64,000 nt of DNA, taken from NCBI GenBank assembly GCA_004297465.1, contig SCUB01000010.1, positions 62,001-126,000 on the forward strand, given 5' to 3'. This DNA is from Xanthobacteraceae bacterium (GTDB lineage: Bacteria; Pseudomonadota; Alphaproteobacteria; Rhizobiales; Xanthobacteraceae). The first letter of the stretch is position 1; each line of letters starts with the position of its first letter. The notes under the pieces are model-generated. The model had not been told where the DNA came from. It worked only from the letters and a program-made list of their open reading frames with translations, and did not search any database. The position numbers and the translations under genes were made by a program. Below are positions 30,551 through 64,000 of this stretch, in pieces.

Positions 30551-31045
30551 TCACGAACTGGCGTTGAGCACCGTCACCGCGCGGCGGTTCTGCGACCAGC
30601 ACGAGATGTCGTTGCACACCGCGACCGGACGCTCCTTGCCATAGGCGATGGTGCGCATGCGGCTGGCGGCGATGCCGCGCGAGGCCAGATAGTCGCGCAC
30701 CACCTGGGCGCGGCGGGCGGACAGCGCGATGTTGTATTCGCGGGTGCCGCGCTCGTCGGCGTGTCCTTCCACGGTGAAGGCATAGCGGTTGTAGGACTGC
30801 AACCACTGCGACTGCTTGTCGAGGGTCGCCACCGCCTGCGGCGTCAGTTCGGTGGAATCGGTCTCGAAGAACACGCGGTCGCCGACATTGACGACGAAAT
30901 CCTGCTGGCTGCCCGGCGTTGCCGCGCTCGCCAAGGCGCCATTGGGGTCGGTCGCGGTGTTGCTGGCGCAAGCCGCCAGCGACAGCGCCACGGCGACGGC
31001 CGCGGCCAGCTTCAATCCCTGAAACAGACGCGATGTGGTGTTCAT
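30551..31045 (-). CDS. pal: Peptidoglycan-associated lipoprotein Pal
   Basis: Outer-membrane lipoprotein that binds peptidoglycan and TolB. Signal peptide with lipobox LAAC (Cys about residue 26), OmpA-like domain DRVFFETDSTELTPQA...VEGHADERGTREYNIALSARRAQVVRDYL with the diaminopimelate-binding Asp/Arg. Two further cysteines (VCNDISCW) may form a disulfide, common in rhizobial Pal. 164 aa. Confidence 0.97.
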   Translation of the reverse strand: MNTTSRLFQGLKLAAAVAVALSLAACASNTATDPNGALASAATPGSQQDFVVNVGDRVFFETDSTELTPQAVATLDKQSQWLQSYNRYAFTVEGHADERGTREYNIALSARRAQVVRDYLASRGIAASRMRTIAYGKERPVAVCNDISCWSQNRRAVTVLNASS

Positions 31046-34132: not shown

Positions 34133-34846
34133 TCACGCGCGTTCGTCGATCTGCCGCGACAGGATCGCCGCGAACTCGTCGGCAAAGCCTTCCAGACGCT
34201 GGCTCTGGCGGTTCACCTCGGAAATGAACTTGTTGTAGAAAATCGTCGCCGGAATGGCGGCAATCAGGCCGACGGCGGTCGCGAACAGCGCCTCCGCGAT
34301 GCCCGGCGCCACCACCGCGAGCGAGGTGTTCTTGGACGCGGCGATCGACTGGAAGCTCGACATGATGCCCCACACCGTGCCGAACAGGCCGACGAACGGG
34401 CCGGCCGAGCCGACGGTGGCCAGCACCAGGAGGCGGCGCTCGAGGCGCTCGACCTCGCGCGCGATGGTGACGTTCATCACCTTCTCGATGCGCATCTGCA
34501 GGCCGGCGAACGACTTGCCCTGGCTCTCGAAACTGCGCTTCCATTCGCGCATGGCGGCGACGAACAGCGCCGCCATCGAATGGGTCGGCCGCGCCGCCAG
34601 CGAGCGGTACAATTCCTCGATCGACTGGCCGGACCAGAATGCCTGCTCGAAGCGGTCCATCGCGCGCCGCGTGCGCGAGAACAGGATCAGCTTGTCGATC
34701 GCGATCGCCCACACCCACACCGAGCAGGCCAGGAGCCCGAGCATCACCGCCTTGACGATCCAGTGCGCCTGCCAGAACAGCGCCAGCAGCGATACGTCGG
34801 CATTGGCCAGCGGCAGGGCTGACTGCGCCACGTCGGATGGATTCAT
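34133..34846 (-). CDS. tolQ: Tol-Pal stator protein TolQ (ExbB/MotA family)
   Basis: Three-helix inner-membrane channel subunit: LFWQAHWIVKAVMLGLLACSVWVWAIAIDK, LVLATVGSAGPFVGLFGTVWGIM and a third helix VVAPGIAEALFATAVGLIAAIPATIFYN, the second and third carrying the conserved stator residues. 237 aa. First gene of tolQRAB-pal; the 420 bp upstream separates it from DUF2852. Confidence 0.96.
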   Translation of the reverse strand: MNPSDVAQSALPLANADVSLLALFWQAHWIVKAVMLGLLACSVWVWAIAIDKLILFSRTRRAMDRFEQAFWSGQSIEELYRSLAARPTHSMAALFVAAMREWKRSFESQGKSFAGLQMRIEKVMNVTIAREVERLERRLLVLATVGSAGPFVGLFGTVWGIMSSFQSIAASKNTSLAVVAPGIAEALFATAVGLIAAIPATIFYNKFISEVNRQSQRLEGFADEFAAILSRQIDERA

Positions 34847-52488: not shown

Positions 52489-53286
52489 ATGCATCCCCAA
52501 TCCGCCCTTCTCAACGTCATGATCAAGGCTGCGCGGCGCGCCGGACGCAGCCTGGTGCGCGACTTCAACGAGGTCGAGAAACTGCAGGTCTCGGTCAAGG
52601 GTCCGGCCAATTTCGTCAGCGCCGCCGACAAGCGCGCCGAAGAGCTGATCTACGACGAACTCACCAAGGCCCGGCCCGGCTACAGCTTCATCGGCGAGGA
52701 AGGCGGCTCCCGTCCCGGCAGCGATCCGTCCCACACATGGATCGTCGACCCGCTCGACGGCACCACCAATTTCCTTCACGGCATCCCGTATTTTGCCATC
52801 TCGATCGGGCTGCAGCGCGAGGGTACCATCGTCGCCGGGGTGGTGTTCAATCCGGTCACCGACGAACTGTATTTCGGCGAGCGCGGCAAGGGCGCGTTCT
52901 GCAACGATCAGCGCCTGCGCGTGGCGGCGCGGCGGCACCTCATGGATTGCGTCGTCGCCTGCGGCCTGCCCCATTTCGGGCGCGGCGATCTCGAACTGTC
53001 GCGCGCCGAGATGATGGCGGTGCAGCCCACCGTGTCCGGCCTGCGCCGGTTCGGCGCCTCGGCGCTCGATCTCGCCTATGTCGCGGCCGGACGGTTCGAT
53101 GCCTATTGGGAGCGCGATCTGGCGCCGTGGGACATGGCGGCCGGCCTCTTGCTGGTGCGCGAGGCCGGCGGCTTTGTCACCGACCTCGACGACGGCGACC
53201 AGATCCTGGAAAAGGGCAGCGTCCTCGCCGCCAACGCCGCCATCCACCGCGACCTTCTGAAAATCCTCACCACGCTCAACCGCTAG
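52489..53286 (+). CDS. suhB: Inositol monophosphatase family protein (SuhB-like)
   Basis: Mg2+-dependent phosphatase acting on inositol-1-phosphate or a related sugar phosphate. Metal sites GEEGGSRPG, WIVDPLDGTTNFLHGIPYFAISIGL and WERDLAPWDMAAGLLLVREAGG. 265 aa. ATG at 52489 is chosen; an upstream start at 52417 adds a Pro-rich non-family stretch. Confidence 0.93.
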   Translation: MHPQSALLNVMIKAARRAGRSLVRDFNEVEKLQVSVKGPANFVSAADKRAEELIYDELTKARPGYSFIGEEGGSRPGSDPSHTWIVDPLDGTTNFLHGIPYFAISIGLQREGTIVAGVVFNPVTDELYFGERGKGAFCNDQRLRVAARRHLMDCVVACGLPHFGRGDLELSRAEMMAVQPTVSGLRRFGASALDLAYVAAGRFDAYWERDLAPWDMAAGLLLVREAGGFVTDLDDGDQILEKGSVLAANAAIHRDLLKILTTLNR

Positions 53287-53294
53287 AAGACGCC

Positions 53295-53720
53295 ATGACC
53301 ACGCGCAGCCTCGACTTCTATCCGCACCGGACGTTCGAGAAGCTGCGCTACGGCGACACCGACCGGCAGGATCACGTCAACAACGCGGTGTTCGCCACCT
53401 TCCTTGAAACCGGCCGCGTCGAGATCCTGTTCGATCAGGTCAATCCGATCAAGCCGCCGGGCACCTCGTTCGTCATCGTGCGGCTCGAACTCGACTACCG
53501 CGCCGAGGTCAACTGGCCCGGCACGGTGGAGATCGGCACGCGGATCATGGGGTTCGGGCGCAGCACGGTGCGGCTCGACCAGTCGGTGTTCCAGAACGGC
53601 CAGTGCGTCGCGACCGGCCAGACCGTCATCGTGCTCACCGACGATACGACGCACAAATCGACGCCGCTGCCGGCCTCGCTGATCGAGCGCCTGTCAAAAT
53701 ACCTGCGCCCCGACGATTGA
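53295..53720 (+). CDS. Hotdog acyl-CoA thioesterase (4HBT family)
   Basis: 141 aa. LRYGDTDRQDHVNNAVFATFLETGRVEILFDQ is the 4HBT/YbgC-FcbC signature, with the catalytic Asp in DTDRQDHVNN; IRVRLELDYRAEVNWPGTVEIGTRI-like strands follow. The gene starts 8 nt after the suhB stop. In the same frame an open stretch extends upstream inside suhB but is only that gene's shadow; ATG at 53295 is the real start. Substrate unknown. Confidence 0.85.
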   Translation: MTTRSLDFYPHRTFEKLRYGDTDRQDHVNNAVFATFLETGRVEILFDQVNPIKPPGTSFVIVRLELDYRAEVNWPGTVEIGTRIMGFGRSTVRLDQSVFQNGQCVATGQTVIVLTDDTTHKSTPLPASLIERLSKYLRPDD

Positions 53721-53858: not shown

Positions 53859-54896
53859 ATGGCGCAGGACGACGTTTTCGACAGGACCGCTTCCGACCGG
53901 CGCGGCGCCGGCCGGCCTCCTCCCGACATCGAGCCGGTGAAGCTGACATCGCCGCGCATTTTCCTCGTCCGCATGGTGGTGTTCCTGATCCTGTGCGGTC
54001 TGCTCGTCGTGGTGCTGTACAGGCAGATCTGGGCCGCCTTCCTCGCCAACCCCGGCCTCAACGGCCTGATCGTCGCCGTGCTCGTCATCGGCATCGTCTT
54101 GGCGTTCCGCCAGGTGCTGCGGCTGTATCCGGAAGTGGCGTGGGTCAACAGCTTCCGCATCGCCGATCCGGGCCTCGTGATCGAGCGCCGCCCGGTTCTG
54201 CTGGCGCCGATGGCCACCCTGCTCGGCGAACGCATCGGCCGCATGGCGATCACGCAGCAGACCATGCGCCACCTGCTCGACTCCATCGCCACCAGGCTCG
54301 ACGAGTCGCGCGACATCGCCCGCTACATGACCGGCCTCCTGGTGTTCCTCGGCCTGCTCGGCACCTTCTGGGGCCTGATCGAGACCGTCGGCTCGGTCGG
54401 CAAGGTGATCGAGGGGCTCAAGGTCAGCGGCGACGCCACCGCGGTGTTCGACACGCTCAAAGAGGGCCTCGCCGCGCCGCTCGGCGGCATGGGCATCTCG
54501 TTCTCGTCATCGCTGTTCGGCCTCGCCGGCTCGCTGGTGCTCGGCTTCCTCGATCTGCAGTCGGGCGGCGCGCAGAACCGCTTCTACACCGACCTCGAGG
54601 ACTGGCTGTCCACCACCGTGCGCGAATACGGCGCGACGCCGGCAACGGCGGGCGCGCTGACGGCGGCCGACCTTCATCCCGTGGTGGAGCGGCTGCGCGC
54701 CGCGGTCGAGGACATGGGCACCAGCCGCGGCGCCACCTCCGCCATGGCCAATCTCGCCGAAGCGATCCAGGGCCTCGTGCATCACATGCGCTCGGAGCAG
54801 CAGATGATCCGCGAATGGGCCGACGCCCAGGGCGAGCAGAACCGCGACATCAAGCGCCTGCTCGAGGCGCTGAACCATCCGCCGGGCGGGGCCTGA
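53859..54896 (+). CDS. MotA/TolQ/ExbB-like proton channel protein of unknown partner system
   Basis: 345 aa. N-terminal two helices (FLVRMVVFLILCGLLVVVLY; GLIVAVLVIGIVLAF), then the stator-family helices TGLLVFLGLLGTFWGLIETV and GGMGISFSSSLFGLAGSLVLGFLD, which carry the channel-lining motif of MotA/ExbB/TolQ. The C-terminal about 80 residues are coiled coil. It is followed after 4 nt by a MotB-like/OmpA protein. TolQ/TolR exist separately at 33.7-34.8 kb, so this is a second ion-driven envelope motor; no flagellar genes are near. Function not established. Confidence 0.82.
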   Translation: MAQDDVFDRTASDRRGAGRPPPDIEPVKLTSPRIFLVRMVVFLILCGLLVVVLYRQIWAAFLANPGLNGLIVAVLVIGIVLAFRQVLRLYPEVAWVNSFRIADPGLVIERRPVLLAPMATLLGERIGRMAITQQTMRHLLDSIATRLDESRDIARYMTGLLVFLGLLGTFWGLIETVGSVGKVIEGLKVSGDATAVFDTLKEGLAAPLGGMGISFSSSLFGLAGSLVLGFLDLQSGGAQNRFYTDLEDWLSTTVREYGATPATAGALTAADLHPVVERLRAAVEDMGTSRGATSAMANLAEAIQGLVHHMRSEQQMIREWADAQGEQNRDIKRLLEALNHPPGGA

Positions 54897-54900
54897 CGCC

Positions 54901-55923
54901 ATGGCCCTCGCACGCGCGCGCCGCAACGACCACGGCTTCAACTACTGGCCGGGGTTTGTCGATGCGCTCTCGACCCTGATCCTCGGCATCATCTTCCTGC
55001 TGTCGGTGTTCGTCGTGGTGCAGTTCTTCCTGACGCAGGAAGTTTCCGGCAAGGACAAGGCGCTGGAGCGCCTCAACGCGCAGGTTGCGCAACTGTCGGA
55101 ACTGCTGTCGCTGGAAAAATCCGGCAAGCTCAACCTCGAGGAGCAGCTTGCTTCGCTGCGCGCCGGCCTTGCCACCGCCGAAGCCGAGCGCGACCGTGTC
55201 CGTGGCCTCTATGACGGCCTCACCAGCGCCGGCACCGCCGGGCGCGCCGGCGAACTCGCCAAGGCGCTGGAGTCGGAAAAGCAGGTGTCGGGCCGCGCGC
55301 TGGCGCAGGTCGAGATCCTCAATCAGCAGATCGCCGCGCTGCGCCGCCAACTCGCCGCGATCGAGGAAGCCCTCGAAGCCTCGGAGAAGCGCGACCGCGA
55401 ATCGCAGGCCCGCATCACCGATCTCGGCCAGCGCCTCAACGTCGCGCTGGCGCAGCGGGTGCAGGAGCTGTCGCGCTACCGCTCGGAATTCTTCGGCCGG
55501 CTGCGCACCATCCTCGGCAACCGGCCCGACATCCGCGTCGTCGGCGACCGTTTCGTGTTCCAGTCGGAAGTGTTCTTCGATACCGGTCAGGCGGTGCTGC
55601 TGCCGGACGGCCGCGTCGAACTCGACAAGCTCGGCGATGCCGTGATCGAACTGGAAAAACAGATTCCACCCGAGATCGCCTGGGTGCTGCGCGTCGACGG
55701 CCACACCGACGTGCGGCCGATCCGCAGCCCGCAATTTCCCTCCAACTGGGAGCTGTCGGCGGCGCGCGCCATCTCGGTGGTTCAGTACCTGATGTCGCGC
55801 GGCGTGTCGCCGCAGCGCCTCGTCGCCGCCGGATTCGGCGAATTCCAGCCGCTCGAAACCGACCGCACCGAAGAAGCCTTCCGCCGCAACCGCCGCATCG
55901 AACTGAAACTGACCGAACGGTAA
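54901..55923 (+). CDS. MotB/OmpA-like peptidoglycan-binding stator partner
   Basis: 340 aa. A single N-terminal helix with an acidic residue at its start (GFVDALSTLILGIIFLLSVFVVVQFF, Asp21) mirrors the proton-carrying Asp of MotB; then a long coiled coil (residues about 45-170) and a C-terminal OmpA domain (VFFDTGQAVLLPDGRVELDKLGDAV...LRVDGHTDVRPI...NWELSAARAISVVQYLMSRGV) that binds peptidoglycan. Coupled to the MotA-like gene. The coiled coil is far longer than in MotB, placing the OmpA domain far from the channel. Confidence 0.82.
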   Translation: MALARARRNDHGFNYWPGFVDALSTLILGIIFLLSVFVVVQFFLTQEVSGKDKALERLNAQVAQLSELLSLEKSGKLNLEEQLASLRAGLATAEAERDRVRGLYDGLTSAGTAGRAGELAKALESEKQVSGRALAQVEILNQQIAALRRQLAAIEEALEASEKRDRESQARITDLGQRLNVALAQRVQELSRYRSEFFGRLRTILGNRPDIRVVGDRFVFQSEVFFDTGQAVLLPDGRVELDKLGDAVIELEKQIPPEIAWVLRVDGHTDVRPIRSPQFPSNWELSAARAISVVQYLMSRGVSPQRLVAAGFGEFQPLETDRTEEAFRRNRRIELKLTER

Positions 55924-56402: not shown

Positions 56403-58289
<1,887 letters not shown>

Positions 58290-58828: not shown

Positions 58829-59371
58829 CTACTCGACCTTGGTCAGGAACGGCGGCCGCCGCTCGAACGCCGCCTTGAGCTGGCCGAGCTGGTGGACCAC
58901 CGGATTGTCGAGCGCCTGCGCGGCCTTCGTCGCGGGAGCATGAATGGTGGCGTCGAGCCGTCGCACCCTGACCTGCAGCGCCATCGAGCGCGCGATGAGA
59001 CCGCACAGCGATTGCGGCAGCTTCGCCATGACGTCGTCAGCCCCCGGTTCCGGCGCGGACAGCTTCACCTTGGTCTTTTCGCGATTGGCCTGGGCGAGCG
59101 ACATCTCGCCCTCCTTCACCGCGCGGTGCAGCAGCAGCCATGAGGCGAGCTGCATCAGACGCGTGGTCAGCCGCATGCTTTCGGTGGCGTAGGCGAGACT
59201 CGCGGAACGGTCGAGCACCTTGGCGTCGGTGCGGCCCGGTCCGTCGAGATAGGCGGCGGTCTCCTCGACCAGATCCATGCCCTCGCGGAACAGCGTGGCG
59301 AACATGGCGGAGCCCGCGAGCCGCTCGCTGAACGAGATCAGTCCGGGCTGGCGCATGGAATGGTCGGACAT
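58829..59371 (-). CDS. DUF1465 / RcdA-like protein
   Basis: 180 aa, helical: LISFSERLAGSAMFATLFREGMDLVEETAAYLDGPGR... with a Thr/Glu-rich middle. The family (DUF1465) includes Caulobacter RcdA, an adaptor for ClpXP degradation of the cell-cycle regulator CtrA. Equivalence of this copy is inferred from family membership. ATG at 59371 is preferred over 59398. Confidence 0.8.
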   Translation of the reverse strand: MSDHSMRQPGLISFSERLAGSAMFATLFREGMDLVEETAAYLDGPGRTDAKVLDRSASLAYATESMRLTTRLMQLASWLLLHRAVKEGEMSLAQANREKTKVKLSAPEPGADDVMAKLPQSLCGLIARSMALQVRVRRLDATIHAPATKAAQALDNPVVHQLGQLKAAFERRPPFLTKVE

Positions 59372-59420
59372 GGTTAACGCCTCACGCAACTGACGCACGA
59401 CTTATGATGAACAAAACATT

Positions 59421-62231: not shown

Positions 62232-62339
62232 GTGCGATCCCATCACGTTGTGAAGCCGGCCCGCGTCACGCGACGGATTGCCAGCGCGCGCCGCGACCGC
62301 TACATCGGGTCGGGCCGCAATGTGCCGCAAGGATGCGCC

Positions 62340-63341
62340 ATGAACAAGCTGCCGACGGAGATGACCGTCATCGCCATCCGCGCATCCGGCGGACCGGAGG
62401 TGCTGGTGCCGGAACGGCGCGGCATGCCGGCGCCGGGACCGGGCGAGATCCTCGTCAGGGTCAGGGCAAGCGGCGTCAACCGGCCCGACGTGATGCAGCG
62501 CAAGGGACTGTATCCGCCGCCTCCGGGCGCCAGCGACATTCCCGGGCTCGAGATCGCCGGCGAGGTCGCCGCGCTCGGCGCCGAGGCGACGCGCTGGCAA
62601 CCCGGCGACCGCGTCGCCGCGCTGGTGTCGGGCGGCGGCTATGCCGAATACAGCCTCGCCCACGCTTCCCACGCGCTGCCGGTGCCGGAAGGCCTGTCGT
62701 GGGTCGAGGCGGCGGCGATGCCGGAGACCTTCTTCACGGTGTGGCACAACGTGTTCGAGCGCGGCGCGCTCCGCCCCGGCGAAACGCTGCTGGTGCATGG
62801 CGGCTCGTCCGGCATCGGCACCACCGCGATCCAGTTCGCCAAGGCAATGGGCGCGCGCGTGATCGTCACCGCGGGCTCCGAGGCCAAATGCGCGGCCTGC
62901 ATCAGGCTCGGCGCCGATCACGCCATCAACTACGCCACCACCGACTTCGTCGCCGCCACCAAGGCGGCGACCACCGGCGCCGGCGCCAATGTCATCCTCG
63001 ACATGATCGGCGGCGACTATATCGCGCGCAATTACGAGGCCGCCGCCCCCGACGGGCGCATCGTCCAGATCGCGTTCCAGCAGGGCGCGAAGGCGACCGT
63101 CGATTTCATGCGCCTGATGCTCAAGCGCCTGACCCATACCGGCTCGACCCTGCGTTCACGGTCCGTTGCCGACAAGGCCGCGATCGCCCGGGCCATCGAG
63201 GACACCATCCTGCCGCTGGTGCGCGCCGGGGCCATCCGGCCGGTCATCGACAGCACATTTACCCTCGCCGAGGCCGCCGCCGCCCACGCCCGGATGGAAA
63301 CCAGCCATCATATCGGCAAGATTGTGCTGTCCGTACCGTAG
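62340..63341 (+). CDS. NAD(P)H quinone oxidoreductase (PIG3-like, zinc-free MDR)
   Basis: 333 aa. GroES-like N-terminus (GEILVRVRASGVNRPDVMQRKGLYPPPPGASDIPGLEIAGEV) and Rossmann fold VHGGSSGIGTTAIQFAKAMGARV. No zinc ligands. Belongs to the QOR/PIG3 branch that reduces quinones with NADPH. ATG at 62340, about 99 bp after the DUF1192 start on the other strand. Confidence 0.93.
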   Translation: MNKLPTEMTVIAIRASGGPEVLVPERRGMPAPGPGEILVRVRASGVNRPDVMQRKGLYPPPPGASDIPGLEIAGEVAALGAEATRWQPGDRVAALVSGGGYAEYSLAHASHALPVPEGLSWVEAAAMPETFFTVWHNVFERGALRPGETLLVHGGSSGIGTTAIQFAKAMGARVIVTAGSEAKCAACIRLGADHAINYATTDFVAATKAATTGAGANVILDMIGGDYIARNYEAAAPDGRIVQIAFQQGAKATVDFMRLMLKRLTHTGSTLRSRSVADKAAIARAIEDTILPLVRAGAIRPVIDSTFTLAEAAAAHARMETSHHIGKIVLSVP

Positions 63342-63440
63342 CCGGAAATCCTTGGTTTTGCTTTCCTTTCATGGCATCTATCGCGCTTCCCCGTGAGGCG
63401 CGCCCCATGGGGGAACGCCATCAATGCTGGGAGAGCAGGT

Positions 63441-64000
63441 TTGGGTCTTGTCAGGTGCCTCGCGCCCGCGCTGATGGGGCTTGCGCTGCTGATCGGCGCT
63501 TCGTCCGCGCGCGCGGTCGAAGCCGTCAACGTGCGCACCGACGCGCCCGCCATCGACCTGACCGGCGTGCTGGAGCTGCAGAAAAGCGAGACCGACCGCA
63601 TCCAGGTCTCCACCGCGCCCGGCCCCGACGGCATCATCCGCCGCATCGAGGTGCGCGCCCGCGAGGGCAGCACCAACTGGGGCGTGATCGCGCTCGCCAA
63701 CAATTCCGACGACCAGATCGACCGCCTGATCGTGGCCCCGCATTACCGCATGGTGTCGTCGGGACTGCTGTGGCCGGACCTCGGCCTGTCGCGCATCGTC
63801 GCCATCACGCCCTCCGTCGGCGACCGCCCGGAGCGGCAGGATAACCCCTCGGCCGACATCTTCCGCGTCACGCTCGATCCCGGCTCGGTGATCACCTTCG
63901 TCCTCGAGCTGCGCACCGACCGCATGCCGCAGCTCTATTTGTGGGAACCCGACGCCTACAAGGACAAGGTCAACAGCTTCACCATGTACCAGGGCATCGT
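63441..64000 (+). CDS. Partial: 7TMR-DISM-type membrane sensor (probable GGDEF/EAL protein), N-terminus only
   Basis: The open frame runs off the window. A signal peptide (GLVRCLAPALMGLALLIGASSARA) begins at TTG 63441 after GGGAGAGCAGG; ATG at 63474 is the alternative. The exported domain (DLTGVLELQKSETDRIQVSTAPGPDG...GVIALANNSDDQIDRLIVAPHYRMVSSGLLWPDLG...FVLELRTDRMPQLYLWEPDAYKDKVNSFTMYQGIV) matches the extracellular part of 7TMR-DISM sensors, which in this order usually continue into GGDEF and EAL domains; those lie outside. Confidence 0.72.
   Translation, partial: MGLVRCLAPALMGLALLIGASSARAVEAVNVRTDAPAIDLTGVLELQKSETDRIQVSTAPGPDGIIRRIEVRAREGSTNWGVIALANNSDDQIDRLIVAPHYRMVSSGLLWPDLGLSRIVAITPSVGDRPERQDNPSADIFRVTLDPGSVITFVLELRTDRMPQLYLWEPDAYKDKVNSFTMYQGI

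Follow-up and report, generated by a model that had tools for sequence, protein, structure and literature searches.

The subject of this report is a pair of adjacent genes, here called A and B, in a 64,000-nucleotide stretch of contig SCUB01000010.1 from a Xanthobacteraceae bacterium (the window). The two genes very probably build an ion-driven membrane motor that is anchored to the cell wall. Judged by sequence, the nearest relatives of A appear to be the ZorA proteins known from Zorya phage-defence systems, not MotA or ExbB. We consider it fairly probable that their two products assemble into a 5:2 ion-driven motor of the ZorAB type with a housekeeping role in the alphaproteobacterial envelope. 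The genes lie on one strand with a spacing of 4 bp:

53859-54896, plus strand: gene A, 345 residues, channel subunit of the MotA/TolQ/ExbB superfamily, placed in the ZorA clade (PF01618 and tree)
54901-55923, plus strand: gene B, 340 residues, peptidoglycan-binding subunit resembling MotB and ZorB (NF006545; OmpA, PF00691)

An initial annotation made from the letters alone had proposed a MotA/TolQ-type channel gene coupled to an OmpA-type partner at this place, and both open reading frames (ORFs) are present and match the MotA_ExbB and OmpA families. Neither is a chance ORF, because across 29 aligned pairs taken from members of the order the A proteins are 40-77% and the B proteins 38-79% identical to those of the window. 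The profile search that had been suggested as a check gives a borderline match to MotA_ExbB and a clear one to OmpA, while the models for ZorA stay far below their cut-offs. A is a member of the MotA/TolQ/ExbB superfamily with a borderline profile score, and fold and alignment support the assignment. The Pfam MotA_ExbB model (PF01618) matches residues 128-182 in the protein scan (E 2.9e-4, 21.0 bits, cut-off 22.9), and in a whole-genome search the A locus reaches 23.5 bits, just above the same cut-off. B matches NCBIfam NF006545/PRK09039, ‘peptidoglycan -binding protein’, over its full length (653.8 bits, cut-off 372, E 8e-197), and its OmpA match (PF00691) covers residues 225-331 (E 4.7e-16).

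Four genes of the source genome (3.1 Mb, 27 contigs) match MotA_ExbB, namely TolQ, ExbB, a flagellar-type MotA and A. TolQ and ExbB are separate genes that both score above NCBIfam cut-offs, and the flagellar-type MotA, with its adjoining MotB, is on another contig than A and B. That TolQ is encoded elsewhere, as had been noted, holds true: its gene lies in the window on the minus strand at about 34190-34498. A gene for a Pal-like OmpA protein is found on the same strand of the window, at about 30602-30871.

An AlphaFold2 (AF2) model of A has a mean predicted local distance difference test score (pLDDT) of 81 and contains long helices at residues 33-63 (with short breaks), 65-98, 133-187 and 193-258. 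These four predicted helices are read as the transmembrane (TM) helices TM1 to TM4, and the parts of A can be laid out as follows:

53955-54152, plus strand: TM1 and TM2, residues 33-98 (AF2; hydropathy, crude)
54255-54419, plus strand: helix 133-187 with TM3, GLLGTFWGL; Thr169 at 54363-54365 (AF2, conservation)
54435-54632, plus strand: helix 193-258 with TM4, FSSSLFG; Ser217-Ser218 at 54507-54512 (AF2, ZorA-like F-x-[ST]-S)
54633-54893, plus strand: cytoplasmic tail, residues 259-345 (AF2, alignment of order rows)

Thr169 is invariant across the 29 aligned A rows of the order. The TM3 pattern is present in 149 of 150 A sequences (the exception, L134, reads GLMGTF) and the TM4 pattern in 144. 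The tail has predicted helices at 269-285 and 290-339, its helix is conserved in the same alignment of 29 rows, and it might be a short counterpart of the ZorA tail. Between TM2 and TM3 (residues 99-132), the model places one helix only, of eight residues (116-123).

The AF2 model of B (mean pLDDT 78) consists of helices at 16-110 and 113-205, followed by an OmpA fold at 212-338, giving three parts:

54946-55020, plus strand: membrane helix, residues 16-40, with WPGFVD; Asp21 at 54961-54963 (motif conservation, AF2)
55021-55515, plus strand: periplasmic helical stalk, residues 41-205 (AF2)
55534-55914, plus strand: OmpA-type peptidoglycan-binding domain, residues 212-338, with GHTD and NWxLSxxR (Foldseek match to MotS 9ljl, E 2.4e-12)

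The acidic residue that had been pointed out at the start of the partner's helix is Asp21, and the pattern that includes it, WPx[FYW][VI]D, occurs in all 145 B sequences, many of which are close relatives. Both wall-binding motifs are found in 139 of the 145; for at least one of the others, L032, the reason is that its contig ends. The sequence sets (150 for A, 145 for B) include copies of the window pair and 80 close-relative loci from Bradyrhizobium, Afipia, Tardiphaga and others, so the motif counts are not independent. Wrong-frame or unrelated B picks for three loci (L128, L171 and L177) were replaced or left out of these counts. With that reservation, the key Asp and the channel residues, whose loss in relatives had been named as a refutation, are kept. 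A conserved Asp in the B helix together with Ser/Thr residues in TM3 and TM4 of A thus appears, by sequence comparison, to be present as it is in 5:2 ion-driven motors.

A long coiled coil had also been claimed for B. A long helical stalk is indeed predicted, but its coiled-coil periodicity is weak: 16 of 1000 shuffles score equally high over residues 41-205, and when the halves are taken singly, 138 and 42 of 1000 do so. In the order alignment, few parts of B are as well conserved as the helix adjoining the OmpA domain. B is 338-344 residues long in 27 of the 29 order rows, and its length ranges from 302 to 728 residues in the class-level loci that were read. Two order genomes of about 1.4 Mb (L119 and L120) have B proteins of 493-494 residues from the true start, with a longer stalk; the B alignment holds both from a wrong, late start. 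At the upper extreme are L168 (728 residues) and L169 (617 residues), in which a straight helix would be too long for a periplasm of usual width; probably the stalk is folded back on itself, or else the periplasm is different.

The placement of A with ZorA comes from a tree of 75 rows, in which the window family, a set of longer paralogs (described below) and all ZorA rows are separated from MotA, TolQ and ExbB-like rows by a branch with support of 100/98. Further in, the family and paralogs join ZorA type III (99/87), the family joins the paralogs (89/90), and the family without the divergent member L177 forms a group (84/87). A first quick tree of 71 rows, which had no ZorA of types I or II and contained two doubtful rows, gave the same split with a value of 96 in the Shimodaira-Hasegawa-like approximate likelihood ratio test (SH-aLRT). 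In the approximately unbiased (AU) test, grouping A with MotA is rejected (p 0.0056) and so is grouping A with TolQ/ExbB (p 0.019); the AU values are weakened, since group names were assigned only once a first tree had been inspected.

The tree rows were drawn from 13 of the 29 order-alignment rows and 12 of the 20 class-level loci, and ZorA sequences were cut to 420 residues. L003_MotA, flagged as long in the quick tree, and L221 (309 residues, unclassified) were omitted from the careful tree. Group labels were assigned by phmmer, and nine of them were checked against NCBIfam. L001 and L184 (TolQ), L002 (ExbB), and L209 and L222 (flagellar motor) score above cut-offs, L003 falls below (best PomA), and L198, L200 and L205 fall below every cut-off, so the labels ‘ExbB’ and ‘ExbBlike2’ are loose for these three. 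L002 sits among the TolQ rows with weak support.

Signature residues agree with the tree. In TM4, F-x-[ST]-S occurs in 15 of the 16 family, paralog and ZorA rows that were viewed and in none of eight MotA, TolQ and ExbB-like rows. The columns of Thr169 and Ser218 hold Thr or Ser, nearly without exception, in the viewed ZorA, TolQ and ExbB rows (L200 being counted as one ExbB-like row), and MotA rows carry Ala at the Thr169 position. In B, the spacing from Trp to Asp is W-x4-D in 23 of 23 family, three of three paralog and 11 of 12 ZorB rows (the twelfth has no match), and W-x5-D in all ten MotB rows. By crude hydropathy, an N-terminal helix pair is suggested in the majority of rows from the family, from type III ZorA and from MotA alike; ZorA1 and ZorA2 rows have two or three hydrophobic segments, not four, and no such pair.

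The pair is widespread. Of 120 genomes sampled from the order, 119 have a match to A. In 118 it reaches E 1.5e-67 or better; in the remaining one (G094) the best match is paralog-type, and what is left of an A-like gene is incomplete and lies where a contig ends. At three matched places in the order, the alignment runs across stop codons. Within the class, 198 of 289 genomes have a match at E <= 1e-10, and these include reduced genomes of 0.7-0.9 Mb, such as G205, G231, G176, G275 and G354. In the phylum sample, 94 of 299 genomes match at E <= 1e-8. The strong matches number 79 (E 4.7e-53 or better), five of them outside the class and one, in G588, paralog-type; the other 15 are weak (E 3.3e-9 to 2.5e-16), and 14 of these lie in long frames of 698-1117 residues. 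The suggestion that the pair is conserved in the order is therefore borne out, but its range is wider, as the class-level matches and the five phylum-sample genomes beyond the class reveal. Caulobacter vibrioides falls below the NF006545 cut-off, although that model is strict and absence is not implied.

A flagellar role might be expected to leave its mark on this distribution. Among the 289 class genomes (179 with FliG_C hits), 126 have both A and FliG, 72 have A without FliG, 53 have FliG without A, and 38 have neither, such that the two are independent (Fisher p 0.43). According to passages of a stator survey (PMC12505986), flagellar A subunits carry, between TM2 and TM3, a torque-generating cytoplasmic domain with four helices or more. 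That domain is missing from A, because the gap holds one eight-residue helix. We therefore rejected a flagellar stator on the FliG table, the missing torque loop and the AU result for MotA, and a duplicate of the Tol or Ton channels on the tree and the AU result for TolQ/ExbB. The view of the initial annotation that the pair is neither MotAB nor TolQR has thus held up.

The defence partner genes that were sought are missing as well. PADLOC was run on five of the 15 weak matches in the phylum sample and identified each as ZorA of type III (E < 1e-200). At one of the type III loci (L214), the neighbours of ZorA are, by Pfam, DUF3348 (ZorF), OmpA (ZorB) and DUF2894 (ZorG), which is the Zorya III make-up as given in an excerpt of PMC8565338. 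DUF3348 occurs in 15 of the 299 phylum genomes, namely 14 of the 15 with weak, ZorA-like matches plus G615, and is absent from all 79 that match A strongly; DUF2894 occurs in none of the 120 order genomes. ZorC, ZorD and ZorE were not found among fourteen scanned neighbours in the window, and no genome-wide search for them was made. For the same fourteen genes, PADLOC reported no Zorya partner, only generic hits: the ABC exporter described below to mad3/mad8, and an ArsR/rhodanese protein to Csa3/CasR-type regulators. Among the scanned downstream genes of the window, none was recognised as a nuclease or helicase gene, in agreement with what had been noted. ZorA proteins have C-terminal extensions (residues 236-696 in type I and 100-378 in type II, as listed in part of PMC11890865). 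A has 87 residues after TM4, and hence no long cytoplasmic tail of the ZorA type. A complete Zorya system was rejected on the lack of the partner genes that were sought and of the long tail.

The order of the two genes is nearly constant. B follows A in the same direction at 127 of 129 order-level loci, the contig ending in the remaining two, and it does so too at 19 of 20 additional loci that lie outside the order, in other orders or classes (the exception is L177). The surroundings are partly conserved too:

52489-53286, plus strand: gene of the inositol-monophosphatase family, suhB-like (Pfam), the most conserved upstream neighbour
56403-58289: ABC exporter, MsbA-related (TIGR02204, 877 bits)

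Of 44 loci, the window among them, 31 have the suhB-like gene upstream near A. A relative of the exporter (at least 48% identity) is near A in 21 of the 44 loci and lies downstream on the opposite strand in 18 of these, again including the window. A gene that NCBIfam and Pfam identify, in L119, as EF-P is near in 23 loci, a ThiE-like gene in 21 of 44, and a Sel1-repeat gene in 19 of 44. Synteny and breadth together favour vertical descent.

Several observations weigh against the placement with ZorA, or against the generality of the pair. The AU test keeps a tree in which all ZorA form one group apart from A (p 0.247), so A may be a sister of ZorA or nested within it; the A tree has no outside root and contains long branches. 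In the tree of B, the family and paralogs form a clade of their own (98/97), with neither MotB nor ZorB. That tree carries long-branch warnings and was built from 12 of the 29 order-alignment rows and 11 further family rows, omitting L008 and L239 (copies), L226, L228 and L231 (wrong ORF), L218 (out-of-frame start) and L234 (E 4.5). The wall-binding domain of B is nearest to MotS/MotB/MotD by sequence and fold, and the top Foldseek matches of B include those domains of MotS, a MotB-like protein and PomB. For A, VIA gives Z scores of 12.0 for TolQ, 11.9 for ExbB, 11.3 for ZorA and 10.2 for MotA; these are mostly tied, and values below about 13 may reflect only a common helical arrangement. Foldseek returned no hit for A reaching E 0.001, and the best sequence match of A in the PDB, type I ZorA (8VVN), is at E 0.012. 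The NCBIfam ZorA models score 21 and 14 bits on A against cut-offs of 100 and 500, and the PADLOC matches of A to ZorA are partial. In BLASTP, the best stretch between A and one type III ZorA spans 36 residues (E 6e-5); with the genome's own MotA it spans 40 residues (E 0.001). Finally, 91 of the 289 class genomes have no A match, although such absences are partly uncertain because the search model was built from the order only and divergent members may be missed.

Given this evidence, we propose a mechanism by analogy with MotAB and ZorAB, from which the stoichiometry, ion flow, rotation and wall gating are inferred. In the inner membrane, a ring of five A subunits would enclose the two helices of a B dimer that bear Asp21. 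On their way past the polar ring made of Asp21, Thr169 and Ser217-218, ions would turn the ring of A against the axle. The stalk of B would span the periplasm, with its OmpA domain holding peptidoglycan, which would make B the fixed part, and ion flow might be permitted only when the wall is engaged. A would then be the turning part. We can only guess at the output side and the cellular job, but the short conserved cytoplasmic helix of the A tail (259-345) might pass the motion on to a further partner. A housekeeping role is favoured because the pair is near-universal in the order, extends across the class into reduced genomes, is syntenic with the suhB-like gene and is independent of FliG, and because DUF3348 is lacking from the 79 strong-A genomes and DUF2894 from the 120 order genomes.

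The chief rival, to our minds, is one that overlaps with this proposal, in which force is directed outward and the stalk of B drives the peptidoglycan or outer membrane, as an envelope energiser beside Tol-Pal and Ton. The long predicted periplasmic helix before the wall-binding domain would suit such a role, as would the conservation of the helix beside that domain and the variation in B length between lineages. Yet the A tail helix is conserved as well, B resembles a wall anchor and not TolR or ExbD, and no gene for an outer-membrane partner was recognised among the recurrent neighbours identified (those of the window itself and EF-P); we judge this variant rather unlikely. Somewhat less probable again is that A and B are a defence motor after all, a fixed core-genome sensor of phage wall damage whose partners are encoded elsewhere. 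The grouping of A with ZorA and weak PADLOC matches (ZorA3, E 2.3e-12; ZorB3, E 7.6e-21) speak for it. The lack of ZorF from the 79 strong-A genomes, of ZorG from the 120 order genomes and of Zorya partners among the fourteen window neighbours does not, and the near-universal, syntenic distribution contrasts with the spread of Zorya types, which is called ‘typical of anti-phage systems’ in the portion of PMC11890865 at hand.

The other readings carry little weight. A passive link of the inner membrane to the wall, with no useful ion flow, could account for the wall-binding domain and the long stalk, but the conservation of Asp21 and of the Thr motif in TM3 would be hard to explain without ion flow, which makes a tether improbable. 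Service to a type I secretion machine, after the manner of SiiAB, is brought to mind by the paralogous pairs of a few order genomes, which directly follow a gene for an ABC transporter. No operon of this sort contains the window pair, the nearby exporter is MsbA-related, and relatives of that exporter, where present, are mostly on the opposite strand; we rejected this role for the window pair since there is no secretion operon at the locus, and regard it as very improbable. Least credible of all is a spare or alternative flagellar stator. The four helices of A and an OmpA domain nearest to MotS and MotB would fit one, against which stand the 72 A-bearing genomes that lack FliG, the single short helix in place of the four or more of flagellar A subunits, the AU rejection and the W-x4-D spacing of B.

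The ZorAB-type motor with a housekeeping role is thus the reading that we favour. A broader proposal, which we advance tentatively, is that the pair is a core, vertically inherited motor of the Zorya lineage with an everyday envelope function, and that the anti-phage motors of Zorya might be domesticated or sister offshoots of housekeeping motors of this kind. Most Alphaproteobacteria would then have a further general ion-driven envelope machine beside Tol-Pal and Ton.

The longer A-like paralogs (384-547 residues) show a match in seven of the 120 order genomes, and four loci were read: L229 (689-3331), L230 (1441-4129), L232 (3583-5636) and L231 (2092-3246). In the first three, the gene directly before the paralog is B-like and encodes WPG[FY]VD, and is itself preceded by an ABC transporter gene (ABC_tran); no B was found in L231. 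The OmpA match of the paralog B proteins is weak or absent in Pfam. The paralogs branch beside the window family and are joined (99/99) by L177 (5951-6934 in G588), a divergent relative of A. The other listed members of the family to which L177 belongs (f58), from the class and phylum searches, have no A match, and the ORF adjoining L177 reads, by eye, like EF-P.

Other neighbours in the window are less telling. Downstream of the pair are genes for a GNAT acetyltransferase, the MsbA-related exporter, a DUF1465 protein (58829-59398, often accompanying the exporter, in 12 of 44 loci), the ArsR/rhodanese protein, DsrE and an MFS transporter, and an ORF at 62333-63844 that is without a match. Directly upstream of A is a gene for a YbgC-like thioesterase (53286-53720; TIGR02799, E 2.3e-11, below cut-off). 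YbgC heads tol-pal operons elsewhere. Beyond the window, a YbgC-like gene was seen in one of 44 loci (L172), 6 kb away and on the other strand.

The superfamily itself is well known, and B is already an NCBI family, so the description of the pair as an undescribed system is only partly apt: no function was found for it, but the kind of machine is known, the nearest relatives of A are ZorA proteins, and B has a name (PRK09039). No published function of A, B or their relatives was recognised in the literature searched, among the matches listed and within the text available for them (including PMC9389320, PMC10787603 and PMC8508746). A term search in PMC5539429 gave no match, and an ‘ompA’ hit in the accessible part of an A. 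tumefaciens paper (PMC11527210) could not be tied to B. Within the same limits, a motor of the ZorA clade that lacks defence partners and is fixed in most Alphaproteobacteria is not described among the listed matches. In the available passages of the stator survey, flagellar stators have an OmpA domain in the B subunit and generic ones do not, and ZorAB is left out of the tree; A and B, being non-flagellar yet OmpA-bearing, fall outside that scheme. If the placement is true, a motor type known to date from phage defence would be standard equipment in most Alphaproteobacteria, including those with reduced genomes and those that lack FliG, and the origin of Zorya would become testable.

With MotAB, PomAB and MotPS the pair shares four predicted membrane helices in A and an OmpA-type wall domain in B that is nearest to MotS, but it differs in the absent torque-generating loop, the lack of a FliG link, the rejected grouping with MotA and the W-x4-D spacing. 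TolQR and ExbBD have the superfamily fold in common with A (the two highest VIA scores, over about 190 residues), whereas B has an OmpA domain and the AU test rejects the grouping. PRK09039 includes B as a member, although the name covers B only and gives no motor function. The likeness to SiiAB of Salmonella SPI4 type I secretion (as presented in part of PMC12204202) is one of gene arrangement, a pair of the A/B type beside an ABC transporter, and is seen in the paralogs only and not at the window locus.

By its place in the tree, A is closest to the Zorya motors. ZorAB of types I and II (PDB 8VVN, 8VVI and 8QYD) falls on the same side of the 100/98 branch and has the Asp and Ser/Thr positions, although by crude hydropathy its ZorA rows have two or three hydrophobic segments against four in A. 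Zorya III differs in that its ZorA rows are 675-855 residues overall, while A ends in a tail of about 87; in that seven of the eight ZorB3 ORFs listed are 213-225 residues long (the eighth is out of frame), compared with 340 for B; and in that A and B are near-universal in the order and syntenic, with no ZorF in the 79 strong-A genomes and no ZorG in the 120 of the order. What A and B appear to share with type III is the grouping with ZorA, F-x-[ST]-S in TM4 and GT[FL] in TM3 of A, the W-x4-D spacing and OmpA domain of B, and, by the same crude measure, the extra N-terminal helix of A that is suggested in most type III rows.

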